Origin: Thermoplasmata archaeon
GTDB taxonomy: Archaea; Thermoplasmatota; Thermoplasmata; Thermoplasmatales; Thermoplasmataceae
Assembly: GCA_021797735.1 (NCBI GenBank)
Contig: JAJZZE010000052.1
Coordinates: forward strand, 1 to 64,000
Length of the DNA: 64,000 bases
Direction of reading: 5' to 3'
The notes beneath the pieces are model-generated. The model was not told where the DNA came from. It worked only from the letters and a program-made list of their open reading frames with translations, and did no database searches. Position 1 is the first letter of the stretch. Each line of letters begins with the position of its first letter. Positions 256 to 32,685 of the stretch are shown piece after piece. Both the position numbers and the translations under genes were made by a program.

Positions 256-388
256 TACCGTAAACGTTTAATGCGTATACCATAAGAATGGATAAATATC
301 CTTACCCCTTTATATACTCTCAATCCACATTTTATAATATAAAAATAACATTATATAATTTATAAATTATATTACAATAGAAATAAAA

Positions 389-673
389 TTAAAATTCTTT
401 GTTAATAAATCCCTTGGCCTGAAGATATTTTGTATATGAATTAAAGAAGACATTCCTCTGCATATTTTTGATTATCTTACCGGTCTTTGCCTTCCATGTG
501 AAATCATACAGGTCATATTTATCAAATTTATCAGTATTATATGTTCTTTCATACTGGGAAATCAGGATCTCAAACTCTTTAAATACCTTCCTGTAAATGA
601 TTGTGTGGTTATATGCATCTAAGGTTTGCTGCCTTTCATTAATCCTCTTCCTGCTATTCTTAATTGTCCTCAT
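389..673 (-). CDS. Small basic hypothetical protein of the integrated element
   Basis: About 94 residues from ATG 673, rich in Lys, Arg, Tyr and Asn, with no family recognised. The frame also holds an upstream ATG at 697, but ATG 673 fits better: it overlaps by 14 bases the acidic C-terminus of the preceding gene (TAA at 660-662), a typical translational coupling. The N-terminus is strongly basic (RTIKNSRKRINER) and could bind nucleic acid. No signal peptide or membrane segment is seen. It is probably co-transcribed with the frameshifted gene upstream. Confidence 0.5.
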   Translation of the reverse strand: MRTIKNSRKRINERQQTLDAYNHTIIYRKVFKEFEILISQYERTYNTDKFDKYDLYDFTWKAKTGKIIKNMQRNVFFNSYTKYLQAKGFINKEF

Positions 674-952
674 CCTCCTCATCATCCTCCCAGTCATATG
701 GCTCTATATCAGGTTCTTCAGGATCTATTGTTTTCTTTTCTGGATAATCCCCCGGGCCTTCCGGTTCTGCCCCTTAAATTCAGGACCATTGTTTTCTGGA
801 TTACGGTCATATAAATCCAGGTTATAATCTTCAGGTAAAAAATTATGGCAAAAATGATAGCTTCTAACATTGAAATTAGAAGTAAGTGATGATAATGGTA
901 TAATATTATCATTTGATATGTTTTGATTTAAATTAGAGTCGATTTTCTGCAT
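660..952 (-). pseudogene. Frameshifted gene with acidic C-terminus
   Basis: The frame starting at ATG 952 runs 75 codons to a stop at 725. A -1 shift in the GGGG run at 770-773 instead opens a tail with sequence AEPEGPGDYPEKK followed by a highly acidic end (YDWEDDEEDEDN) that stops at 660-662. The tail looks like genuine protein: it is Pro/Glu-rich and ends just inside the start of the next gene. The simplest reading is loss of one G from a G5 run, giving a broken gene. Slippage on the G run during expression cannot be excluded. No family is recognised. Confidence 0.45.
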
Positions 953-1384
953 TTTACTTGATGATTTTATAGCACTAAATAAGTCTCCCTGGAAGATAAA
1001 AATAGATGATAACTTTTTAACTGAATTTTTAAATTGATATAAGTGGTTTCTCCTTGGTTTTTTAGAGATGATAGTACTGGGGGTATAATATTACCCCTAA
1101 GGTAAGGGTTGAGACATATTTTTCATCGAATATCCTTAATGAAAGGTATATTTTTTATTGACCCGGAAGGCAAATATTAATCATATTAATATTATTGTGC
1201 ATAAGTTATAACCCTTGTGCTGAAAATGAATAATGATCATTGTTGGATATATTGCAGCTTTTTAGTTTCCTTATTATGACAATCTTAATCCCGGAATATA
1301 ATCAAATTACCAGGAAGTTATGGGCATAACCAAAAGAAAAATGTATATTTAAAATAGTTTTACCTTATATAGAAGTGTAAAGCA
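953..1384. other. Divergent intergenic region with a palindrome
   Basis: About 430 bases between the leftward pair and the rightward gene at 1385. The only structure noted is a 6-bp inverted repeat GGGGTA/TACCCC separated by six A/T bases at 1080-1097, whose centre is TATA-like and which could be an operator for either direction. A second short stem, TTACC/GGTAA, overlaps its right arm. No ORF of note and no RNA gene is seen. Confidence 0.35.
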
Positions 1385-1998
1385 ATGAATGTGAAATTAT
1401 TCTTAATAGATTATGGTACTTTTATACTAGCTTGCGCAACCGTTGCTGCAATTGTTGTGCCAATAGTAGGAAAATGGTGTAACAGGCCAAAATTATCAGT
1501 ATGCAAGCCATCAAAAGATACTTTAGACCAGATTTCACTTGGTATTAAGAACGAAGGCAGATCGGTAGCTACCGACTGCTATGTGACAATAAATATAAGT
1601 ATAAAAGAGAAAAAAGATGTATTAACTAAGTATGATATACAAAAAAATGAACCACAGAACATGGTAAACGCTTTTGAAACTATGTATAAGAAAGAAATTA
1701 AGGGGCATCTCGCTTGGGAATTTGTACAGCAATTAAATAGGAACAGAGAGGAGACAAATCCTCCTTTTTTAAATATATCCCAAATGATACTGCTGGTATT
1801 TTGATAGGGAGACTGTGTAAGTCGGAAAGTAAACAATATATAGAAATTCCATCAGAATTGGGATACAAAAAACCAAGAGTTTATTTAGAGGCTAAAGATT
1901 ATTACATTAAGATAAGCTACGGTGCATCAAATGTAAAAATGAAAGAATGTAATTATGTGTTAAAATATGTTTCTGATGGATTATTACTTATAATTTGA
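1385..1998 (+). pseudogene. Membrane-anchored hypothetical protein, frameshifted
   Basis: An N-terminal hydrophobic segment (about residues 8-28) precedes a soluble domain. The first frame stops at 1804. A +1 change in the T run at 1765-1770 joins it to the frame that runs on to 1998, giving the smooth junction PPFFKYIPNDTAGILIGR. One T lost from the run explains this exactly. The intact protein would be about 204 residues with a single N-terminal membrane anchor. The family is not recognised. It sits in the integrated element, so decay is plausible; a sequencing error in the homopolymer is the alternative. Confidence 0.55.
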
Positions 1999-2201
1999 TT
2001 TATATATTTATAAATGTGAGATTTTTATTGACATTATGGGGCATTGGTGTAATTCCATAATTCAAAGAATAGGTAATATGTGGGTTTATAGGAATAAAAT
2101 ATTATCCTATTTTTTCTGCTTTTATATATTACAAAACAGTAGTTTTACAATAGAACTTCAAAAAATACAAACGTTTATATTTAGAATAATTATATATTTG
2201 C

Positions 2202-2486
2202 ATGGCACTTTCACTAAAGAAAACTTTAAACCCAGGGTATGAACTTGCAAACGGTATAATAAAAACATATTATTTAAATGAAAACGACCCCAATGTTACA
2301 GAAAAGGTAAACCAAATAAAAGTAGATTATGCCGTAAAAGACGCTGTGTATGAATTACTTGCAGCAGCTATAATAAAGGAAAAACGTTTAAATAAAAGTA
2401 ATCCTGGTATTACTGAAAAGATAAAACAATTGAAAATAGATGATAACGTAAAAAAAGGGATATATAAAATACTTAGAATTTCATGA
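2202..2486 (+). CDS. Small hypothetical protein with two internal repeats
   Basis: 94 residues, charged and probably helical. Two similar units are visible: LNENDPNVTEKVNQIKVD followed by VKDAVYELL, and LNKSNPGITEKIKQLKID followed by VKKGIYKIL. This points to an internal duplication of about 45 residues. A TATA-like sequence near 2173-2182 lies about 25 bases before ATG 2202, fitting a leaderless transcript. The gene overlaps the start of the membrane protein at 2483 by four bases (ATGA), so the two form an operon. No family is recognised. Confidence 0.6.
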   Translation: MALSLKKTLNPGYELANGIIKTYYLNENDPNVTEKVNQIKVDYAVKDAVYELLAAAIIKEKRLNKSNPGITEKIKQLKIDDNVKKGIYKILRIS

Positions 2487-2764
2487 TTGATTATGCAGCA
2501 CTGGCCGAATCCGCATCGGTTATATTAACAATTTATTTTATTGTAGCCGGTGTACTTATGCAGCTTTTTCAGGGTACCGGACTGTTATTTGCTATAGCGA
2601 ATGTCTACAGAAAGTGGATAGTTGCAGTTTTTATCCTTTTTAGCATTGCTATTATCATGGCTTTAATGAATATATTTTATTCAATTCTATTCTTTATTGC
2701 ATCAATGATAATGTTGGGCATTGCCTTACAGTATCTTTTTTCTTTTCTCAACAAGATACGTTAG
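2483..2764 (+). CDS. Small three-helix membrane protein
   Basis: 93 residues with hydrophobic segments at roughly residues 10-30, 46-63 and 66-88, joined by short loops, so it should be an integral membrane protein with about three spanning helices. It is translationally coupled to the preceding two-repeat protein by an ATGA overlap, suggesting the pair acts together. Its function is unknown. It lies next to, and converges on, the integrase of the integrated element. Confidence 0.55.
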   Translation: MIDYAALAESASVILTIYFIVAGVLMQLFQGTGLLFAIANVYRKWIVAVFILFSIAIIMALMNIFYSILFFIASMIMLGIALQYLFSFLNKIR

Positions 2765-2783
2765 AATTAAAATAAATAAAGGA

Positions 2784-3995
2784 TTAACCCTGGTTTATTT
2801 CATCCCTGAACTTCTTTAACAGTTCAGGGTCCTTTAATATCTCTTCCAGGACACTCTCTATTAACTGGGATTTAAATGCCTCATGGGCCTTCTCAATTAA
2901 TGACCTGGTAATCCCTGGCAGTACTGTAGATTTTTCTATGTTTGCCTCAATCTCTTTCTCCCTTCCCTGGTATTCTAAAGCCATAGCTTCATCAAACGGC
3001 AACCAGCAGTTATGGCAGTACCTGGCATTAGATGGGTTTAATTCATTGCATCTTAAGCATTTCTTGGGCTTGGCATCAGTAATAACCTCTTCCTTTGTGC
3101 TAATTCCATATGCCTTTAATATTGCATTATCCTGGTCTCTCCCTGAAAGATGTACATAGGTCTGTGTCATTCTGGATCCATGCACCCACCCCATCTGGTT
3201 TTCTAATGGTGCCTCTGGTACTCTGGATGCAAGCAATGAAGCCCTTGTATGCCTGAACAGATGTGGATATATTCTTTTATTAATGCCTGCCCTTTCTTTC
3301 AATCTTAAAATAATCTTCCTGGTAGACTGGTAATTTAACTGGGCATTTCCACTCTGGGTAAAGACATATCCATTAACGTTTCCCTTTGACTTTAAATAGT
3401 CCCTTAAGTACGCTATTGAATCACCAACAATCCTTACCTGCCTGTTACCTGTTTTCCCATGTACCCTGATAACCAGCCCATACTCATCATAAACTACCTC
3501 ACCTGGCCTTAATGAAAGTATTTCACCAATACGGCAGCCTGAATCATACAGCAATGAAATTAATGCCTTGTCCCTTAAACTGTTTGTTGAGCCAATCATT
3601 GCTTCAATATCACTTTTTGTAATCAGCTCCAGCTGCTTGTCATGTGAAGGCCTGTTGTATATTTTAATCTCTAAAAATTCAGGAACCGTCCCATAACGCC
3701 ATTTATAAAACCTCTTTAATACACCCTCATAATCTGATATTGTTTTATAAGTGTATTTTTCCCTGAACTTCAAAAACATATTTATTATATCATTCTTTTC
3801 AGGATCCAGGAATTTATCCCCAAGGTAATTATATATTACCCTTACCCTTACTAAATAAAAATATATCCCGTGTTCTGTTATTCCAGTAATCTTCAATTCA
3901 TTAATAAAATTAAAAATAATATTTCTTTCCTTCTCAGGAATATTATTATATCTTTTATACTCACCCATTATATCTCTTTCAATTTGATAAATCAT
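2784..3995 (-). CDS. Tyrosine recombinase (integrase) with C-terminal zinc ribbon
   Basis: A 403-residue site-specific recombinase of the XerC/D-like tyrosine family. An N-terminal SAM-like DNA-binding domain covers about residues 15-110 and the catalytic domain 120-295. The active site is complete: R155 (GCRIGE), K181, H245-x-x-R248 (HLFRHTR), H272 and nucleophile Y280 (TYVHL). A zinc ribbon follows (C313, C316, C327, C330), common in archaeal plasmid and element integrases, then a helical tail. It lies beside the right attachment repeat, as expected for the integrase of the element. ATG 3995 and an in-frame ATG nine codons later are both possible starts. The gene is not split by the att site, unlike SSV-type integrases. 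Confidence 0.9.
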   Translation of the reverse strand: MIYQIERDIMGEYKRYNNIPEKERNIIFNFINELKITGITEHGIYFYLVRVRVIYNYLGDKFLDPEKNDIINMFLKFREKYTYKTISDYEGVLKRFYKWRYGTVPEFLEIKIYNRPSHDKQLELITKSDIEAMIGSTNSLRDKALISLLYDSGCRIGEILSLRPGEVVYDEYGLVIRVHGKTGNRQVRIVGDSIAYLRDYLKSKGNVNGYVFTQSGNAQLNYQSTRKIILRLKERAGINKRIYPHLFRHTRASLLASRVPEAPLENQMGWVHGSRMTQTYVHLSGRDQDNAILKAYGISTKEEVITDAKPKKCLRCNELNPSNARYCHNCWLPFDEAMALEYQGREKEIEANIEKSTVLPGITRSLIEKAHEAFKSQLIESVLEEILKDPELLKKFRDEINQG

Positions 3996-4039
3996 AATAC
4001 TATTATTTACTGTAAGCGTATTAAACTTTTAGGCTTAGT

Positions 4040-4310
4040 CTATGGCGGAAATAAGTGGTTATTCATTTACTTTTATATGATTCATTATATTTTTTATGTT
4101 TTCATCCCGGGATAACTATTATTTATGTTACCAGCAAGTATTATACCATCCTCCTGTCAACAAGCTTATAATAGTTGTTTTTACCTTTTTTATAATTAAT
4201 GTCATATATCCCATATGTATGAAATACATATAAATCCCGCCTCGGGTAGTAGATCACAGAGTCAGAAAGAAAAATTATACGAAATTCCTAGCGGCTTATT
4301 TCCGACATAA
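4040..4310. mobile_element. MITE copy A (271 bp)
   Basis: A non-coding element beginning CTATGGCGGAAATAA and ending in the imperfect inverted repeat TTATTTCCGACATAA. It is flanked by a perfect 8-bp direct repeat GGCTTAGT (4032-4039 and 4311-4318), a target-site duplication. Most of its length is closely similar to 39716-39955. It carries no transposase, so it must be moved in trans by an unseen element. It sits directly against the right attachment repeat of the integrated element. Confidence 0.85.
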
Positions 4311-4317
4311 GGCTTAG

Positions 4318-4332
4318 TCCCGCCCTCTGCAT
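4318..4332 (+). repeat. Putative attR of the integrated element
   Basis: TCCCGCCCTCTGCAT, matching the 3' end of tRNA-Leu (241-255) at 14 of 15 bases. Its first base is shared with the target duplication of the neighbouring MITE. With the MITE and one duplication removed, the remaining sequence is continuous, so the MITE arrived after the attachment site was formed. Confidence 0.5.
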
Positions 4333-4430
4333 AATTATAAAAGTCCAGTACAAACAATATTGAAGTTTTGTTATAATAAACATAGGAAATACTGATTATA
4401 CCATGTTCTTTACTTTACTGTAAAGTTGGG

Positions 4431-5039
4431 TTATATCCATTTTATTTCCCTCATTATAGATATAATATCCCTAATATTCTCTATTTCATAATCCTTATGT
4501 GTGGATTCTTTTTTACTGCCATGTGTAACCAGAACAGAAACACAGTTCAATTTTTTCGCAGGAATTAAATCATTGTCTATATCACCAACAACCATGGTAT
4601 TTTCAGGTGTTACTTTCATCAAATTTATCGCTTTTAAATATGGTTCTGTATCGGGTTTCCCCCTTTTAACGTCATCCATGGTAACTATGGCATCAACATT
4701 CAGATTAAGTTCATTTATTAATTTCCTTCTGGACGATGTTACAACTGCCATTTTTATATTATTTGATTTTAAAATATTAAATGTTTCCTCAACATCATTA
4801 AAGAATCTTACATTGCCTATATTTTCATGAAAATATTTTTCTTCACCCATCTCAATTTCGGGATTAATTGCATTCATCTTTTTTATAAGCATTGAACCGG
4901 GATAACCGATCATCAGTTTGATTACCTCAGGGTCAGAATCAATATTATAATCCTTAAATGCCCTTTTCCATGCCTCTACCCGGTAATCTATTGAATCCCA
5001 TATTGTCCCATCAAGATCAAATATTATGCCTTTTTCCAT
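4431..5039 (-). CDS. HAD-superfamily phosphatase (phosphoglycolate phosphatase-like)
   Basis: A 202-residue haloacid-dehalogenase-type hydrolase, subfamily IA. The nucleophile motif is FDLDGT with D8 and D10, the second motif is VVTSS, and the final acidic motif is VVGDIDNDL. A small helical cap lies between residues 15 and 80. Such enzymes dephosphorylate small phosphorylated metabolites such as 2-phosphoglycolate or sugar phosphates; the substrate cannot be told from sequence. It is a single gene just outside the integrated element. Length and motifs are complete. Confidence 0.85.
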   Translation of the reverse strand: MEKGIIFDLDGTIWDSIDYRVEAWKRAFKDYNIDSDPEVIKLMIGYPGSMLIKKMNAINPEIEMGEEKYFHENIGNVRFFNDVEETFNILKSNNIKMAVVTSSRRKLINELNLNVDAIVTMDDVKRGKPDTEPYLKAINLMKVTPENTMVVGDIDNDLIPAKKLNCVSVLVTHGSKKESTHKDYEIENIRDIISIMREIKWI

Positions 5040-5520
5040 GAAAGTAAATGTTTCAATAATATTTAATTTATTATTAATGGGATAAATAATACATTTTTAA
5101 ATAAATCTTTTAAATAATATAATATGTTAATATGTTAAAAATTAGTATATAAAACAATTAAAAACAACTTATGTGATACAGTGTAAAAAATATATCGGGA
5201 TTGCAGGCATTTAATATTTAATGATTCAGTGGGTTAACAAAATATAAAGTCAAATTTAACTGATATTAACTCCCCTGCAGGTTAAGTATTTTTATTGAAT
5301 TATGTATATAATTTTTATTTCCAGTTTGTGGTTTTAGTATCATAATTTTTGTAATTTAAATAATTATTAAATATTGATTGCAAAAGTTAATAACATGGTT
5401 CATAAAGAATATTCTAACCGGATCAATTCGTATTTCTATAGGTTAAAAACTTTAAATATATTTGGAATTATAAAATTTATGGTAAATATTTTTTTATATA
5501 ATATTTATTTTTATGCGCTT
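5040..5520. other. AT-rich intergenic stretch
   Basis: About 480 bases of very AT-rich DNA upstream of the HAD gene and downstream of the 900-residue ATPase gene. No ORF, tRNA, repeat or convincing hairpin is seen. A TATA-like sequence suitable for the HAD gene lies just before 5040 on the minus strand. With the similar gap at 8224-8688, it isolates the ATPase gene from its neighbours. Confidence 0.6.
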
Positions 5521-8223
5521 TTAAATTAAATTCTTATCAATCGATACATCCAGATGGTTATTAACTACTTTCGGAACTATAGTTGTATTTACATACATTG
5601 ACAGGCTATCATGGTAATTTTCAGATTCAGATGTAAGAAGTATCAATTCTTCATGTATAAACGAATTGACAAACTGGAAAAATACCCTCCAGAATTCATT
5701 CTGATAAATCATTGAACTGCCTTTTTTCTGTATTGGTATAACATCATCAATTTTATAAATAACAAATAATGACCCTTCAAAATTTGATATGCTATTCTTT
5801 ACTTCAATGTACAGTTTGCCGGCTAGTGTCATTGCCTGACCTACGTCGTTAACAGGGCGCTGCCTGAAATATGCAGGTGAAAGTGAAAGCATATCTACGT
5901 CGCTGATATCCTCAAGATAGCTATTTATTTCCCTTTCATGCGACGTTGTAAGTATAATTACATGCCTGCCATTATTATGCGCATATTTAATAATTTCTGA
6001 TAATAAACGTATTTCATTGCCGGAGTTTCCGGACAATAATGCTATACCGTTTGAAACAGCTATACTTAAAATATTGCTTTCTGCATTAAAACTGAACTCA
6101 AAGTTTTTGGTGCTTTTCTTGCCTGATAAATTTATTATTGAATTGTCTTTAACCCTGGAAAACGGGTTAAACTTTGAAAGAATAGATCTGACGTCATCCT
6201 TTGGCTCAGGTGAGATGTCCTCATTATGAAATTCTTCAACTGCATGGTATGAATAATCTTCTTCTACAATGAAGGGAAACACAATATTATATAAATTAAT
6301 AATAGGGCTATCTTCTTTCTGGGATTTCATTAGATTAACAATTTCATTTGCCGTTCCTGGTCTATTATATTCAATTCCATTTTCTACAGAGTATTTTTCT
6401 AGTAAATTAACTATGCCATTTTTCTTCTTTAGCCAGTTTTCAACATCTTTTAACTGGCTATCATTATATATTTTATGATATTTTACATAGGCTTTTGCTA
6501 TAACTTCCGGGTCTATAAAGTCTTCAATTGTGGAATCTTCCACTCCAATTTTTGAGGGTATTAACTTTATCCTGCTTTCTGCTACATTCATTTTCTTGAG
6601 CTTTTCCTTTGTATCACGCCCATAAGCATTGTCGTTTAATATAATGTAGAATGGCGTTCCATTATATTGCATCCATAATATATATGAATATATATTGTTA
6701 GGCTTGTTCTGCCCTATAAAGGTAACATCTGTTCTTGGTATGTTATTTTTAATTATATTATATTTATTCCAGATGAAATTTAATAAAATTTGATCAGATT
6801 TAGTTTCAACAAAAAACACTGTTTTGTTTATAAATAAGTTATCCAGTATGCCATATCCAAGAGCGGCATATATTGGGGCAAGGACCTCTTTCTGTGTTTT
6901 CCATCCCCTTTTAAGGTTCATTAAATCAGTAATAGCACTTGAACTCCCGCTTCTCGAGAGAAGAAGAATGCTTTCAGGTATATCAAGCGGGATAAAAAAT
7001 GGTAGATGTGTGGTATATATTATGTATATGTTTTTCGGCAGGTTTTCCCTCAAAAATCCCAGAAAATTTTTCTGTTTTCCAGGATGTAATAATATTCCAA
7101 GGTCATCAAGCATTAAAAATGAGTTATTATATTCACCATCTGTCCTGGAATTTAAGTTAATAAATACACTTAGAAACCATTGAAAACCATCGCTTTCCAT
7201 GCTTGGTGGCACAAGGTAATCCCGGGATTCTTCCGGCGTCACCATTACTAATAATATAGGTGATGTTGATTGCTCATATCTAATTTCCAGCCTGCCCTCG
7301 TCAAAACCCCAGACCGTAGATAATCTTTTGCTGATAATATTGCTTGCTTTTTCAAAATATGCTACACGCTGATCATGGTCCATATACTCTATTCTATCAA
7401 GTTCAACCTGTGCCAGCCGCAGCAGGTTCATAAAAGTTTTATGTTCACCAGGATTTTCTTTTAATTCAGTTACTGTAACCCGATCCTCCAGCCTGTCATA
7501 TGCGGAAAAATAAATAAATTTTGGGATTTCACTAAGAATTTCAGGCACATCTGTCATTGAAAGCTGATCACGTAGCATTTTAATATTTTCATCTATCTGT
7601 GTTTTTATGTCACTTTCAAATTCTATATCATTGATGATATCAAGCAACATGAATATACGATTATAATCAAGATAATTATCATTAACTGCATTTTTTAAAT
7701 TTTCAAGCTGAATTAACATCTGTGATGTTAATTTAGGATTATTTGACTGAACTGCAATACTCCTTAAATCATCTATGAAGGGTAGCATTTTATTCTGTAT
7801 TTTACCGGAATTTATGACGTATTCCTTGGTGCCAATTTTAATGTGGTATGATGGATCAAAAAATTTTGTTACTGTTAATAATTCATCACTTTCTATGTTA
7901 CGCCGCATAGGTTCAAACTCAGCCTCTATTATTTTTATCTGATTACCATTTATTTTGCCATTCATATAATTAAAACCTATATCTCCAAGCTGTGTAATAT
8001 CAAATTTATCAAATTCTGTATCGTAATTTAGTTTCTCAAGCGCATTTAAAAGGCTGCTTTTGCCAGCCCTGTTTGATCCTATTAAAACTGTGGTTTGATT
8101 TTTAATATCAACATATCCGGAATCCACTATCGATCTAAAATTAGTAACTCTAAAACGTTTTAACCTATATTTTACCGATAAGTTCTGTTTATTTGGTTCA
8201 AAATTAAGGTTTAAATCCGTCAT
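5521..8223 (-). CDS. OLD-like ATPase with TOPRIM-like region and extra C-terminal domain
   Basis: A 900-residue protein. Residues 20-410 form an ABC/SMC-type ATPase: Walker A GSNRAGKSS (49-57), a signature-like SMESDGFQW (341-349), Walker B FLMLDDLGILLHP with Asp where Glu is usual, and switch His in YTTHLP (403-408). Residues 466-575 resemble the TOPRIM domain of OLD nucleases: VFFVETKSD keeps the Glu, FYIILNDNAYG is a weakened DxD, and TIEDFI follows. Residues 700-900 form an additional domain whose SGNSGNEIRLLSEIIKYA and VIILTTSHER look like a KaiC/RecA-type fold without a proper P-loop. The gene stands alone between two gaps of about 470 bases. OLD-family proteins often act in phage defence or DNA repair; the role here is inference. 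Confidence 0.75.
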   Translation of the reverse strand: MTDLNLNFEPNKQNLSVKYRLKRFRVTNFRSIVDSGYVDIKNQTTVLIGSNRAGKSSLLNALEKLNYDTEFDKFDITQLGDIGFNYMNGKINGNQIKIIEAEFEPMRRNIESDELLTVTKFFDPSYHIKIGTKEYVINSGKIQNKMLPFIDDLRSIAVQSNNPKLTSQMLIQLENLKNAVNDNYLDYNRIFMLLDIINDIEFESDIKTQIDENIKMLRDQLSMTDVPEILSEIPKFIYFSAYDRLEDRVTVTELKENPGEHKTFMNLLRLAQVELDRIEYMDHDQRVAYFEKASNIISKRLSTVWGFDEGRLEIRYEQSTSPILLVMVTPEESRDYLVPPSMESDGFQWFLSVFINLNSRTDGEYNNSFLMLDDLGILLHPGKQKNFLGFLRENLPKNIYIIYTTHLPFFIPLDIPESILLLSRSGSSSAITDLMNLKRGWKTQKEVLAPIYAALGYGILDNLFINKTVFFVETKSDQILLNFIWNKYNIIKNNIPRTDVTFIGQNKPNNIYSYILWMQYNGTPFYIILNDNAYGRDTKEKLKKMNVAESRIKLIPSKIGVEDSTIEDFIDPEVIAKAYVKYHKIYNDSQLKDVENWLKKKNGIVNLLEKYSVENGIEYNRPGTANEIVNLMKSQKEDSPIINLYNIVFPFIVEEDYSYHAVEEFHNEDISPEPKDDVRSILSKFNPFSRVKDNSIINLSGKKSTKNFEFSFNAESNILSIAVSNGIALLSGNSGNEIRLLSEIIKYAHNNGRHVIILTTSHEREINSYLEDISDVDMLSLSPAYFRQRPVNDVGQAMTLAGKLYIEVKNSISNFEGSLFVIYKIDDVIPIQKKGSSMIYQNEFWRVFFQFVNSFIHEELILLTSESENYHDSLSMYVNTTIVPKVVNNHLDVSIDKNLI

Positions 8224-8688
8224 ATTTCGTCAGACAATCTAATGAAAATAAGTATATAAGATTATATTCACTATTATTCTTATCTACTATATGTATAAAT
8301 GATACTGAAATAATGCAAATATTAATCTATGGTGGTATTAATGCAATATAAGGTCATTAGCACATTTACATTACTGTAATTTTTGAATTTCACTATACAA
8401 CTCTATATCATATTAATTTAAATACTTTTGGAATTGATTTTAATAATATCTCCATTAAAGTTATGATAATATTTGACTTAAATTTATATTACTCAATCCT
8501 TTTTTTATTTCCAAATTATTTTAGATATATAGTTATGCATGGAATAGCATGGTTAATAATATATCTATTCTATTTAAATTATTTTTATTTATCATTACAA
8601 TTAATTTTATATATGAAAATATGTATATTATTAATATAATATCATAAATTAAAAATAAATTTATTTAATTATTAATAATAAACCGGCA
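8224..8688. other. AT-rich divergent intergenic region
   Basis: About 465 bases between the leftward ATPase gene and rightward bluB. Runs of A and T with several TATA-like sequences are seen, but no ORF, tRNA, direct repeat or clear palindrome. It must hold both promoters. Confidence 0.6.
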
Positions 8689-9354
8689 ATGGATATTTAT
8701 GATGCAATAAAAAAAAGAAGGGATGTTAGATCGTGGTTTAGCAATGAAAAAATACCGGATGAAACAATTTCAAAAATATTGCTTGCCGGCCATTATGCAC
8801 CTTCTGTAGGTCTATCAGAACCGTGGAATTTTATTATAATAAAAGATATAAATACAAGAAAAAAAATTAAAGAACTTGTGGATAAAAAAAGGTCTGAATT
8901 TTATAATTCCTTACCCGAAGATAAAAAAGAAAAATTTGAAAAAATAAAAATAGAAGGCATTATAGAATCATATGCTAATATAGCAGTAACGTGTGATTTT
9001 AATCGTAAGAGCCCTAATATACTTGGGAGAACATTTATAAAAGAAACATCAGAATACAGTACTGTTCTGGCAATTGAAAACATGTGGCTTGCCGCAAGGT
9101 CTGAAAATATCGGTATTGGCTGGGTAAGTTTTTTTAATCCTGAGGATGTTAAAAAAATATTAAATGTACCGGATGAAATAAAATTAGTAGCATATCTAAC
9201 TTTAGGCAAATTAACAGAATACCATAATAAGTCCGAGTTGGAGGAAAAACACTGGGAGAAAAGGCATAATTTATCTGAGTATATATTTATGGATAAATGG
9301 AATAATAAGCCGGATGATAATTTTATGAATATTATTAAAAATTCAATGCTTTAA
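8689..9354 (+). CDS. bluB: 5,6-dimethylbenzimidazole synthase BluB (nitroreductase fold)
   Basis: A 221-residue flavoprotein of the nitroreductase superfamily. BluB marks are RRDVRSWF near residue 10, HYAPSVGLSEPWNFI around residues 36-50, GIGWVSFF around residue 140, and a C-terminal LEEKHWEKR. BluB fragments reduced FMN with oxygen to give 5,6-dimethylbenzimidazole, the lower ligand of cobalamin. An ordinary nitroreductase is the alternative, but the APSVG and GWVSFF motifs favour BluB. It is preceded by a long AT-rich region and its 3' end overlaps the convergent Nudix gene by 12 bases. No other cobalamin gene is in the window. Confidence 0.8.
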   Translation: MDIYDAIKKRRDVRSWFSNEKIPDETISKILLAGHYAPSVGLSEPWNFIIIKDINTRKKIKELVDKKRSEFYNSLPEDKKEKFEKIKIEGIIESYANIAVTCDFNRKSPNILGRTFIKETSEYSTVLAIENMWLAARSENIGIGWVSFFNPEDVKKILNVPDEIKLVAYLTLGKLTEYHNKSELEEKHWEKRHNLSEYIFMDKWNNKPDDNFMNIIKNSML

Positions 9355-9809: not shown

Positions 9810-10104
9810 GGAAATGCCCGGAGTAAGCCTCCTTCTGTTAGCCTTTCGGTTGGCAACATTCGACTATGCGTCTTACCTGAATCTCACGGTCGGCTCACAG
9901 ATTCCTTTTAGACTTGCACCCTGCAGGGAGAGTTCCCATCCGTACTCCATAAAACGTCATCTTTCCGAATCACCCTTTATATGGAACAGTTTATTTCTTA
10001 TCCCTTTACCATACCTCTCGATATTCCGGCTTTCACCGGATGCAGTTGGCCGTGGAGGGGGGACTTTCCTCACCTTTCGGCGTAAGTTGCCCTCGGGCTT
10101 TTCC
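9810..10104 (-). ncRNA. rnpB: RNase P RNA (archaeal type A)
   Basis: Read on the minus strand, the RNA begins GGAAAAGCCCG and ends CGGGCATTTCC, which pair as helix P1. It holds the conserved GAGGAAAGTCC element near the 5' end, AGGGTGCAA in the middle and ACAGAAGGAGGCTTAC near the 3' end, the universal core regions of RNase P RNA. It forms the catalytic part of the tRNA 5' processing enzyme. The region is clearly GC-richer than its surroundings, as usual for structured RNA in an AT-rich thermophile. The open frame on the opposite strand is a shadow. Confidence 0.93.
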
Positions 10105-10255
10105 ATCTAATAATTACAATGTTAAATTTAAATTTAACTTACATATTAGCATAAAAAAATTTAACTATATATACAAAAATATTAGATGCCAGGGTTTAGT
10201 AGCTTAAAGGTTACATTGATAGAAAATATGGAACACGGGAGTTTAGGAGATAGGT

Positions 10256-10277
10256 ATATATGCATGTTTGCATATAT
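10256..10277. promoter_or_regulatory. Palindromic operator before vapB
   Basis: A perfect inverted repeat with 9-base arms (ATATATGCA and TGCATATAT) and a four-base spacer. It overlaps the TATA-like promoter and ends six bases before ATG 10284. VapB antitoxins bind such palindromes to repress their own operon, so this is the likely autoregulatory site. Confidence 0.6.
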
Positions 10278-10283
10278 GTATAC

Positions 10284-10520
10284 ATGGTTAAAGTTATATC
10301 AATACAGGATGATGTTTATGAGGAACTAAGAAAGCGCAAGGATGGAAAATCCTTTTCTGTGGTTATAAGGGGTCTGCTTAAAGAATCAGGTAAAAAACTC
10401 ACAATAGGTGATCTTTTTAGTTATGAAACTATACTTTCCGATGAAGAAGCCATTAAAATGGAGAAAGAGACGCTTGAAGCCAGAAAACGTTCTAAAACAA
10501 GGTTTATAAAGGAGTTGTAG
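10284..10520 (+). CDS. vapB: VapB-type antitoxin
   Basis: 78 residues from ATG 10284 (MVKVISIQDDVYEELRKRK). The N-terminal strand and helices fit the archaeal VapB (DUF217) group, with a C-terminal charged helix that would wrap the toxin. An in-frame ATG at 10260 lies inside the operator and is unlikely as the start. It neutralises the VapC toxin encoded immediately downstream and represses the operon. The gap to vapC is three bases. Confidence 0.8.
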   Translation: MVKVISIQDDVYEELRKRKDGKSFSVVIRGLLKESGKKLTIGDLFSYETILSDEEAIKMEKETLEARKRSKTRFIKEL

Positions 10521-10523
10521 GAT

Positions 10524-10928
10524 TTGGTTACAATACTTGATACAAATATATTGATAGACATGGCCCATCACGAGAATGATTTGTTTGTGGCTATGAATGA
10601 CGTTTTAAATCAGAATCCTGCTATCACTGTCATAAATAAATATGAGTTTCTTCGTGGTATTTTCATATCTAACAGTACCAAAGAGAAAAAGGAAAAACAG
10701 ATATCGTTCCTGAATCAATTCATGGTATATAGTTTCACACCTAATACCGTGCAACATTGTGCAGAATTATATTCAAGGCTAAGGAAAAATGGAAGGCTAA
10801 TAAATGAACTTGATATCCTAATTTTAGGAATATGTGTAGAAAACAGACTTAGCTTAATAACCAATGATCATGACTTTGATGGTATGGATCAGATTACAGG
10901 AATTAATATAAAGGTGCTTAATTACTAA
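10524..10928 (+). CDS. vapC: VapC toxin, PIN-domain ribonuclease
   Basis: 134 residues starting at TTG 10524. The PIN-domain acidic residues are present: D in ILDTNILID near the N-terminus, E in NKYEFLRG, D in NELDILILG and the ITNDHDFD motif near the C-terminus. These coordinate Mg2+ or Mn2+ for RNA cleavage; VapC toxins usually cut tRNA or rRNA. The gene forms a two-gene toxin-antitoxin operon with vapB. The length is typical and no catalytic residue is missing. Confidence 0.85.
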   Translation: MVTILDTNILIDMAHHENDLFVAMNDVLNQNPAITVINKYEFLRGIFISNSTKEKKEKQISFLNQFMVYSFTPNTVQHCAELYSRLRKNGRLINELDILILGICVENRLSLITNDHDFDGMDQITGINIKVLNY

Positions 10929-11051
10929 GATTAATATATCAAGAGATATAATATTAAATGATGATGTTTGCAGTAAAAAATGATAAATGGAAAATAGGTA
11001 TTAAATGTGTTTGTTAATACAACAGTTCTTAAACTGGATGAGGGTATAAAA

Positions 11052-11723
11052 ATGGGAAATAGTATTACATTGAATAATAACTACAGTTCATCAAAGGTTA
11101 CAGTATCAGGAAATAAGATTAACCTTACTATAACTAATCAACTTTCTAAGAAGAATATTATTATACCACAGAATAATAAAATAAAAGGAATACATAATTC
11201 ACCGGAGGTCTCGGATAATGTTTTATCGTCTAGAAGTGTACATCTTAAATTTCCAAAAGATTATGCAGCTGCACTTGTAGTTACAAAAATAGGCGTGTCA
11301 TCTGTAAGTACGGATTCTCTGTCATTTATTGTGGGCGTTATGGGTGAAGTAGTCCCTGCTGATGCAGATGCCGCAATTGGTGCACTTGCAGGCTTATCTG
11401 CGGCTTCTATAGTGGGTGCTGTTGTAGTTGGTGCAGTTATAGCTGCACTTGCTGCTGATTACGCAGCTTTATATTATTACGCTTCAAGCGGTCATTATCC
11501 TACTATGTATTTAGACATAGGTGTTAGTATAGGAACGCAATGGTGGAATTCTTACGATATTGGAACTTATGGGGAAGAGGGAGCATTTACAGGAAACTAT
11601 AATTCAGGCAATGGCATGTATATACCACTGGTATCAACATCTACAAATCTCAATGCTTTCATGCCACATGCAGGTGTATGGAATCCTTATGCTGAACCTC
11701 CATGGCATTTATACAAAAACTAA
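11052..11723 (+). CDS. Hypothetical protein with Gly/Ala-rich hydrophobic core (possible bacteriocin-like)
   Basis: About 223 residues from ATG 11052, chosen because a GAGG ribosome-binding site lies eight bases upstream; the frame is open from 11007. The N-terminal third is polar and Asn/Ser-rich with no signal peptide. The middle has an Ala/Gly/Val-rich membrane-active-looking segment (GALAGLSAASIVGAVVVG, then AALAADYAALYYYA). The C-terminus is aromatic and ends PPWHLYKN. No Cys is present. A glycine-zipper segment followed directly by a small membrane protein resembles bacteriocin-immunity loci, but no homology is recognised and the role is inference. The accessory setting (VapBC, IS256) fits. 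Confidence 0.5.
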   Translation: MGNSITLNNNYSSSKVTVSGNKINLTITNQLSKKNIIIPQNNKIKGIHNSPEVSDNVLSSRSVHLKFPKDYAAALVVTKIGVSSVSTDSLSFIVGVMGEVVPADADAAIGALAGLSAASIVGAVVVGAVIAALAADYAALYYYASSGHYPTMYLDIGVSIGTQWWNSYDIGTYGEEGAFTGNYNSGNGMYIPLVSTSTNLNAFMPHAGVWNPYAEPPWHLYKN

Positions 11724-11737
11724 GTCTGGGTAATAAT

Positions 11738-12025
11738 ATGATAAATATATATATTATGGTAGTCAGCGTAAATACATTTATTCATTTTTTACTTTATGAT
11801 ATTTCAATATCTTACATATGGACATTTATAACACTTTTATTTGTATATGTTGGTATAAGAGCACTATTTAAACGTAAGGCTACAGCAAAGCCGGTAAGAA
11901 TAATAACAATCATCGAAATTGCATTAAGCATATATGTTTTTGGCATTTTAGGTATAGCTTTTATTATTATACTTGTGCTTCCGTTTTATATAATAGATCG
12001 TGTACATTATTTTGTGTATTTATAA
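11738..12025 (+). CDS. Small membrane protein (possible immunity partner)
   Basis: 95 residues from ATG 11738, preceded by a GGGT ribosome-binding site; an earlier in-frame ATG at 11702 overlaps the upstream gene and is less likely. Hydrophobic segments around residues 4-20, 25-40 and 60-85 predict three membrane helices with basic loops (FKRKATAKPVR). It starts 14 bases after the Gly/Ala-rich protein, so the two are co-transcribed. An immunity role is speculative. Its 3' end runs to the left edge of the IS256 element and the last codons overlap the transposase stop region. Confidence 0.5.
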   Translation: MINIYIMVVSVNTFIHFLLYDISISYIWTFITLLFVYVGIRALFKRKATAKPVRIITIIEIALSIYVFGILGIAFIIILVLPFYIIDRVHYFVYL

Positions 12026-13165
12026 AGGGTACCTCTTCTGAAACATTTCTCTTATGCCGTCCCTGCATTTAAAGTAACCGTTCATCTTCCTGAATATGTG
12101 CTTTGAATTAAACTCTACAGATTTAAAATAGAATATTTTCATTGCTGAATCCTGATCAGGGAATGATGATACAGTTTTTATCCTTCTTCTTATTTCCTCA
12201 TTTTCCCTTTCTATTACATTTGTTGATTTTAATGATCTTCTAATATTCTCAGGGTAATCATAGAACCTGAATAGCTTACCGGTACTCTTCTCCGTATTGT
12301 ATACTATATCAGGATATTTATTATTCCATTTAATTTTAAAGTCATTGAATCTATCTACTGCATCCTTCTTATCATTACAGTTAAACATTTTATTAGCATC
12401 ATTTACTATCTCCTCAGAATCTCTCTCTTTTACCTTAGATTTTATTCCCCTTAAATAGTGTATGGTACATGACTGAAAATCTGCCCTGGGGAAGATCCTC
12501 ATTACCTCCTCATCTAGATTATTTATTCCATCTGCTATAAACAATAGTGGCTCTGTTAATCCCCTGTTATACAGATCTGTTAATACATCCCGGTAGTTGT
12601 TATGTGATTCCTTTACCGTAAGATAGAAACCCAATATCTCATATTCACCTGTTTCCTTTATACCTATTGCAAATATTACAGGTTCCTTATCAACCGGAGC
12701 TCTTCTTAAATAGAAGAATAATCCATCTAAATATACAGCAATATACCTTTTATCCAGTTTTCTGTTCAGGAATGTATTTATTTCTTCTATTGCTGCATCT
12801 GTTATCTTTGATACTGATGATGGAGAATATTTATTATTAAATAGAGTCTTTAATATATTTGATATTCTCCTTGTTGATACCCCATTTGAATACATTGATA
12901 TTATTAAATCATCCATGGCTATAGCTCTGTTATTATAATCTATTACAGCACTGTGGAAACTGTTATCCCTGTTTCTTGGTACCTTCATATCATCTATTTC
13001 ACCATATTTAGTTTTTAAATTCCTTGTGTAATAGCCATTCTTTATTCCTGTATTCTCTGATAGGAATACATCCTGCTCTATCTTCATTATCTTTTCTATT
13101 TCCTTTTTCACTGTCTCTTTTATTATACTGTCAATATCAGATATGTTTATATTGTTATATTCCAT
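12020..13165 (-). CDS. IS256-family (Mutator-type) transposase
   Basis: 381 residues. The DDE catalytic residues are visible: D147 (VYLDGLFF), D212 (FIADGINN) and E319 (TNVIERENEEIRRR). The C/H motif of this family, CTIHYLRG, is at 233-240. A strong ribosome-binding site GGAGG precedes ATG 13165. The protein seems complete and functional. The C-terminal codons (FQKRYPL) are written by the left terminal repeat, and the TAA stop lies in flanking chromosomal DNA, so the stop depends on the insertion site. The enzyme moves the element by cut-and-paste or copy-out transposition. Confidence 0.92.
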   Translation of the reverse strand: MEYNNINISDIDSIIKETVKKEIEKIMKIEQDVFLSENTGIKNGYYTRNLKTKYGEIDDMKVPRNRDNSFHSAVIDYNNRAIAMDDLIISMYSNGVSTRRISNILKTLFNNKYSPSSVSKITDAAIEEINTFLNRKLDKRYIAVYLDGLFFYLRRAPVDKEPVIFAIGIKETGEYEILGFYLTVKESHNNYRDVLTDLYNRGLTEPLLFIADGINNLDEEVMRIFPRADFQSCTIHYLRGIKSKVKERDSEEIVNDANKMFNCNDKKDAVDRFNDFKIKWNNKYPDIVYNTEKSTGKLFRFYDYPENIRRSLKSTNVIERENEEIRRRIKTVSSFPDQDSAMKIFYFKSVEFNSKHIFRKMNGYFKCRDGIREMFQKRYPL

Positions 13166-32098: not shown

Positions 32099-32127
32099 GC
32101 GGCATATATTTTATAATATTGATAACA

Positions 32128-32685
32128 ATGTCAGTATTAGGAGAGAAAACAGAGCAGGGATTAAAGGTGTTATTGACGGCAAATGCTGAAGACCATATGA
32201 GATTAAAGGCAGCAGCGGAATATTTTGAAAAAATGGGAAACACGGAAACTGCAAAAGACTTAATGGACAAGGCGGACGTAGAGCAGGGTCATTTCAATGC
32301 TATATTCTCAACACTGGTAAAATATGAAGGATTAAATGCACTGGTAAATGGAATGGCAAGAGAAGAATCAGAACAGCACGTATCTGAATACACAAATGTT
32401 GCAGCAGCAGCAAAAGCAGAAGGCCATGATGACATAGAAGCAATGTTATGTGCATTCTCAGAACAGGAAAAGGGAATAGCAGACGCATTAAACAGAGCAG
32501 GAATGCAGAAAGTAATAGAAGGCATGGCAAGAGAAGAATCAGAACAGCACGTATCTGAATACACAAATGTTGCAGCAGCAGCAAAAGCAGAAGGCCATGA
32601 TGACATAGAAGCAATGTTATGTGCATTCTCAGAACAGGAAAAGGGAATAGCAGACGCATTAAACAAAAGCAAAACAGCATTCTAA
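32128..32685 (+). CDS. Rubrerythrin-like (ferritin-fold) protein with internal duplication
   Basis: 185 residues from ATG 32128; an in-frame TTG at 32119 is less likely. Helical, with Glu/His pairs typical of di-iron four-helix bundles: NAEDHMRLKAAAEYF, KADVEQGHF and ESEQHVSEY. No rubredoxin domain is present. Residues 76-122 recur without change at 133-179 because the DNA is duplicated, so the protein has three two-helix modules instead of two. Rubrerythrin relatives reduce peroxide or store iron; with the extra module either role could be altered. A strong TATA box precedes the gene. It stands alone. Confidence 0.75.
   Translation: MSVLGEKTEQGLKVLLTANAEDHMRLKAAAEYFEKMGNTETAKDLMDKADVEQGHFNAIFSTLVKYEGLNALVNGMAREESEQHVSEYTNVAAAAKAEGHDDIEAMLCAFSEQEKGIADALNRAGMQKVIEGMAREESEQHVSEYTNVAAAAKAEGHDDIEAMLCAFSEQEKGIADALNKSKTAF
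32353..32493 (+). repeat. 141-bp direct repeat, copy 1
   Basis: Identical base for base to 32524-32664, offset 171 bases, in the same reading frame. It encodes the module from MAREESEQHVSEY to IADALN. Confidence 0.95.
32524..32664 (+). repeat. 141-bp direct repeat, copy 2
   Basis: The second perfect copy; a 30-base linker encoding RAGMQKVIEG separates the copies. Identity at synonymous sites points to a recent duplication or gene conversion. Confidence 0.95.

Follow-up and report, generated by a model that had tools for sequence, protein, structure and literature searches.

An OLD-like ATPase/TOPRIM protein with degenerate motifs and a KaiC-like tail in the Ferroplasma group

The window, i.e. 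the whole stretch of 64,000 nucleotides that was analysed, contains a gene whose 900-aa product consists, in order, of an OLD/Rad50-type ABC ATPase, a TOPRIM-like domain and, at the C terminus, a RecA/KaiC fold that has no functional P-loop (Table 1). This fusion is real and unusual. The ATPase and the layout are OLD-like, of a known kind, but no other family member in the searched collections was found to carry the tail. The gene is a single intact open reading frame with no internal stop, and an independent assembly (G004; locus L039) holds the same fused frame at 97% identity; thus the fusion is not an assembly artefact. The preliminary description did not recognize the combination as a described architecture, and the collections searched did not yield it elsewhere.

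Table 1. Features of the fusion gene and its insertion site (window coordinates; residue numbers are those of the 900-aa protein)
Feature	Position	Strand	Basis or remark
OLD-like ATPase/TOPRIM/pseudo-KaiC fusion gene, 900 aa	5521..8223	-	ORF; dN/dS 0.04 vs G004 copy
ABC ATPase (residues 20-440), split by a helical insertion typical of OLD/Rad50-type proteins	6904..8166	-	Pfam AAA_15, model, PDB matches
Walker A GSNRAGKS (49-56), intact	8056..8079	-	family alignments
ABC signature SDGFQW (344-349), family hallmark SxGFxW	7177..7194	-	family alignments
Walker B FLMLDD (369-374), catalytic Glu replaced by Asp374	7102..7119	-	alignments; identical in G004
Switch (H-loop) His406, intact	7006..7008	-	invariant alignment column
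TOPRIM-like domain (466-572)	6508..6828	-	beta-alpha order in model; alignment to family TOPRIM motifs
Degenerate DxD N530-D531-N532	6628..6636	-	alignments; identical in G004
Tail homologous to C-terminal half of ~430-aa Ferroplasma paralogue (about 656-897)	5533..6258	-	tblastn 3.3e-19, blastp 1.7e-20, alignment
P-loop remnant GNSGNEI (732-738) lacking the Lys and Ser/Thr	6010..6030	-	blastp and KaiC profile alignment
Tail Walker B strand LFVIY (819-823), acidic residue lost	5755..5769	-	KaiC profile alignment
Segment missing at the equivalent site of G007	5077..8644		AT-rich DNA leaves about 25 bp of uncertainty at the right edge
HAD-family hydrolase, left flank	4431..5039	-	Pfam HAD_2 1.2e-32; adjoins empty site in G007
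Nitroreductase, right flank	8689..9354	+	Pfam 2.2e-27; adjoins empty site in G007

The ATPase head is matched by Pfam AAA_15 over residues 21–411 (1.7e-11). The predicted model has a pLDDT of about 85–92 across most of the ATPase core and matches PtuA (retron-Eco7), TsOLD, GajA and Rad50 in the PDB. The OLD-family ATPase features, i.e. the Walker A motif, the signature and the switch His, are all present in this N-terminal ABC/Rad50-type domain. Walker A is intact (G49-SNRAGKS56), as first described, and the Asp for Glu noted in Walker B is also confirmed (FLML-D373-D374), nearly all relatives having Glu. The Glu is lost in other Thermoplasmata members as well, which read LLDNP (G386, G366 and G012), and in one viral contig (L050), which reads LLDDPG.

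Pfam gives no TOPRIM match for the window protein itself; one relative passes the cut-off. The beta/alpha order and the family alignment fit a TOPRIM domain and the model has OLD and GajA fold matches, with moderate model confidence for the domain (about 72). The DxD motif, earlier called weakened, has Asn at both aligned acidic positions (N530 and N532). This reading stands with a refinement: the second Asp is often lost throughout the family, and only the missing first Asp sets the window protein apart. It should be pointed out that a one-residue shift would let Asp531 replace the first Asp. Acidic residues E473, D477 and E567-D568 are kept. Judged from its sequence, the protein lacks the catalytic acidic DxD by which OLD nucleases are recognized.

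The tail had been described as the last 200 residues, RecA/KaiC-like and without a P-loop. The fold and the lost P-loop are borne out, but the added part is about 240 residues long, its homology beginning near residue 656–669. Residues 716–897 are modelled with RecA/KaiC secondary structure; confidence for the tail is moderate (about 70), and the linker at residues 602–715 is largely of low confidence. Absence of the TOPRIM or KaiC-like fold from a predicted structure had been named as the outcome that would speak against the description, and this outcome did not occur, the model having a TOPRIM-like beta-alpha order and a RecA/KaiC-like tail. A HerA/FtsK-type reading of the tail, made from sequence, was given up for KaiC after the PDB fold search. 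DUF835 is a P-loop-less relative of KaiC; it was ruled out as the identity of the tail (hhalign probability 0.3).

The tail has a chromosomal homologue. A paralogue of ~430 aa (429 aa in one case), present in the same genome and in relatives (G000:C43 and F. acidarmanus), resembles the tail in its C-terminal half at about 30% identity. The model of this paralogue is good only in the C-domain (pLDDT about 80), whose best PDB matches are KaiC (top), FlaH, sso2452 and RecA (E 1e-6). The tail profile itself aligns in register with the KaiC profile from the P-loop through Walker B (E 1.3e-5). The tail shares fold and profile alignment with KaiC/FlaH/RecA-fold ATPases, but it lacks the P-loop Lys and the Walker B acid and is not KaiC by function. 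The paralogue motifs are likewise degenerate (GKKGDGKI, and no Walker B acid), which makes the tail family a pseudo-ATPase family of long standing. When the tail profile was run over GTDB species genomes, in a pattern-based scan that remote fusions may escape, it gave seven loci, all in Thermoplasmata, one of which is a full fusion. Viral contigs, phages and plasmids yielded no match to the tail, and the tail tree did not resolve the host lineage that donated it.

In Ferroplasma and relatives, the full paralogue and an Hsp70-like gene lie side by side in divergent orientation in 21 of 21 loci, although several of these are overlapping copies of one genome and the independent genomes are fewer than 21. 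The conserved pair is seen at L088:9205–12536 (Hsp70-like gene at 10782–12536), L089:7131–10232 and L040–L045. A second Hsp70, which scores better, is elsewhere in the genome. Unlike the fusion, the paralogue has no ATPase or TOPRIM domain, has its own N-terminal half and occupies a fixed chromosomal locus.

The N-terminal ~630 residues belong to an OLD-like family of bacterial plasmids and viral contigs, with homologues of 20–25% identity that span residues 20–625 and stop there. These are found on 78 plasmid records (Streptomyces, Enterobacter, Acinetobacter and others), at 39 viral-contig loci and in a few Thermoplasmata, and share the motifs SxGFxW(F/Y)xS, LLLDEPG and VEGxxD...IED. Phylogenetic analysis, in which outgroup branches are long and TsOLD was left out, places the window protein inside this plasmid/viral clade (99/97); P2 Old, YbjD and GajA-like proteins fall outside it. 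The OLD-like ATPase/TOPRIM identity proposed at the outset is upheld. Plasmid members annotated as ‘AAA family ATPase’ (e.g. Streptomyces WSQ96641.1 and E. albertii WP_059268695.1) have the same ATPase-TOPRIM order, signature and TOPRIM motifs and, like the window gene, are mostly standalone. However, they end near 640–700 aa without a tail and keep LLDEPG and the first TOPRIM Asp, which the window protein does not. A relative on an E. albertii plasmid is encoded at L029:4998–7001.

Across 51 family loci no conserved neighbour was found, except a ~165-aa open reading frame upstream in six related loci. These loci form one bacterial subgroup (L029, L031, L056, L057, L062 and L063), in which the frame is immediately upstream and encodes a possible partner.

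Among known systems, Class 1 OLD proteins (P2 Old, T. scotoductus OLD and YbjD/OldB) are standalone ATPase-TOPRIM proteins, a layout that the window protein resembles, and among the PDB matches of its model TsOLD (6p74) ranks second. Their catalytic residues are reportedly kept and a KaiC-like tail is not described for them; the window protein differs in both. Its gene is standalone as in Class 1, the neighbours being the HAD hydrolase and the nitroreductase, with no helicase, RT or AriB. GajA of Gabija (Class 2 OLD) is similar to the model (8sm3, 1.7e-10) and has nucleotide as a regulator, but the window protein has a degenerate DxD and an extra tail, and a UvrD-like GajB helicase was not found beside its gene. 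The PtuA proteins of Septu and retrons are the best fold matches of the ATPase part, whereas the window protein also has a TOPRIM-like domain and tail. The Septu, PARIS and retron partners (PtuB HNH, AriB, and RT plus ncRNA) were not found beside the gene. Pfam, PDB sequence and PADLOC searches returned ATPase cross-matches only; the PADLOC assignments arise via the shared ATPase and do not reflect true membership.

The fusion was found only in the window genome (G000) and one other Ferroplasma-group genome (G004), i.e. two of the ten genus genomes. A close relative, G007, has an empty site where the HAD and nitroreductase genes are 76 bp apart; along the flanks it matches the window at about 95% identity (96% over the HAD gene). 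The nitroreductase beside this empty site is interrupted (L112:7754–8819). Non-coding AT-rich DNA of 481 bp and 465 bp is found on either side of the open reading frame, in agreement with the roughly 470 empty bases first reported. Between G000 and G004, dS of the fusion gene is 0.36, compared with 0.53–0.89 in five neighbours, and fourfold-site divergence is 0.245 vs about 0.43 in neighbours (Fisher p 3e-8). A transfer of the gene after the two genomes had separated would be expected to leave lower silent divergence than in the flanks. The empty site and the dS values support gain/loss of a single-gene insert, as had been suspected. Loss in G007 together with local recombination is a possible alternative account. 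Conserved synteny with housekeeping genes, which would have counted against transfer, is not seen: the flanking genes are common to relatives, but the fusion gene is missing from the site in the closest relative. No convincing terminal repeats or clear target duplication were found at the insert ends, which are AT-rich, and there is no mobility gene inside the insert. The G004 insert at the same site is 8.4 kb and contains the fusion gene and two short open reading frames (L085:5708–6758) that read by eye as PIN-domain proteins.

Between the two copies dN/dS is 0.04 overall and 0.025–0.056 per domain, lowest in the TOPRIM domain (0.025), with 0.056 in the tail. The degenerate residues are all identical in both copies. 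Far from decaying, the degenerate domains are thus functional.

OLD proteins occur across several anti-phage systems, but little is understood of those that stand alone or come from archaea. We infer a defence function for the window protein. A reading that we consider to have an even chance of being right is that the gene is accessory, moves horizontally on its own and encodes an OLD-like protein, most likely of an immune or abortive type, which works by ATP-gated assembly and not by canonical two-metal TOPRIM cleavage, and whose tail is an adaptor or sensor. From the retained Walker A, signature and switch His, ATP binding and head-to-head assembly would be expected of the head. Hydrolysis is probably slow, given the Asp for the catalytic Glu, and ATP would then be a gate rather than a motor. 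Canonical two-metal cutting seems unlikely for a TOPRIM domain without the acidic DxD position(s); the domain may still bind nucleic acid or work with a weakened site. The tail, a RecA/KaiC-fold pseudo-ATPase, derives from a lineage-specific host family whose members always have an Hsp70-like gene as partner; it would most likely dock on a host partner or its attacker and so control the ATPase head.

Work on related proteins touches on these points. YbjD with its TOPRIM domain deleted still gives anti-phage phenotypes (PMC13261556), and IbfA is a plasmid standalone ATPase-TOPRIM protein that interferes with phages (PMC12111858). According to PMC12796447, which cites Cheng 2021, GajA probably binds ATP without hydrolysing it, and ATP probably serves as regulator. 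If a natural member that is degenerate in both sites is under strong purifying selection, this would speak for the ATPase switch, and not TOPRIM cleavage, as a part that can do the work.

It is possible, though unlikely, that the protein has kept OLD-type nuclease activity on DNA or RNA, Asp531, E473, D477 and E567/D568 forming a shifted acidic site and the tail merely aiding oligomerization. The four residues other than Asp531 are invariant in the plasmid-family alignment as well as kept here, the TOPRIM domain has the lowest dN/dS, and members with a single DxD Asp are widely persistent in the family; against this, both aligned DxD positions are Asn, and the first is Asp in nearly all relatives. 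A host maintenance protein, with a part in DNA repair or a chromosome or cell-cycle role, and working with the Hsp70-linked KaiC-like family, is improbable. For Cran1, an OLD protein of archaea, a role in cell cycle progression is reported (PMC12796447), and the parent of the tail is in conserved synteny with the Hsp70-like gene. However, Cran1 is conserved across Sulfolobales, whereas the window gene is accessory, absent from most of the genus and from the site in the closest relative; its silent sites are less diverged than the flanks, and its relatives are on plasmids and viral contigs.

The gain and loss pattern is also element-like, and the gene might be one for addiction or self-maintenance of a mobile element, harmful once ATP or a partner is lost. 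The PIN-like frames of the G004 insert and the greater toxicity of a YbjD Walker A mutant (PMC13261556) are in line with this, but no antitoxin-like partner is beside the gene and the insert lacks a mobility gene, and we consider this most improbable. As a point against the defence reading, no known defence gene is directly beside the fusion gene; the nearest toxin-antitoxin pair is a VapBC pair 2 kb off (window 10260–10928), and a Mutator-family transposase (12020–13165) is also near the insertion site.

A bolder version of the immune reading, and a distinctly unlikely one, is an archaeal equivalent of integrated-decoy immune receptors, in which a mobile OLD-type switch would carry a dead copy of the host's Hsp70-linked KaiC-like domain as bait or guard, and virus meddling with the host module would trigger the response. 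If confirmed, it would extend the guard/decoy idea to archaea. In G386, a relative of the N-terminal part (L086:8909–11764) has a prenyltransferase alpha/alpha toroid (Pfam PF00432, 3.2e-60) inside its ABC ATPase, a pattern that an exchange of sensor modules within this kind of ATPase would predict. Because the host domain in the fusion has a fixed Hsp70-like neighbour, there is a concrete partner to test.

Other features of the window deserve mention. A tRNA-Leu gene (169–255) is followed by a tyrosine integrase with a zinc ribbon (2784–3995). Positions 272–4430 have no match between the same tRNA and the HAD gene in G007, and therefore probably represent a second integrated element. The archaeal RNase P RNA gene is at 9812–10102 on the minus strand (Rfam RF00373, 203.8 bits), about 460 bp past the nitroreductase, and the plus-strand open reading frame overlying it (9814–10110) is spurious. 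Within the protein encoded at 32119–32685, a stretch of about 50 residues (GMAREESEQHVSEYTNVAAAAKAEGHDDIEAMLCAFSEQEKGIADALN) is duplicated almost exactly.
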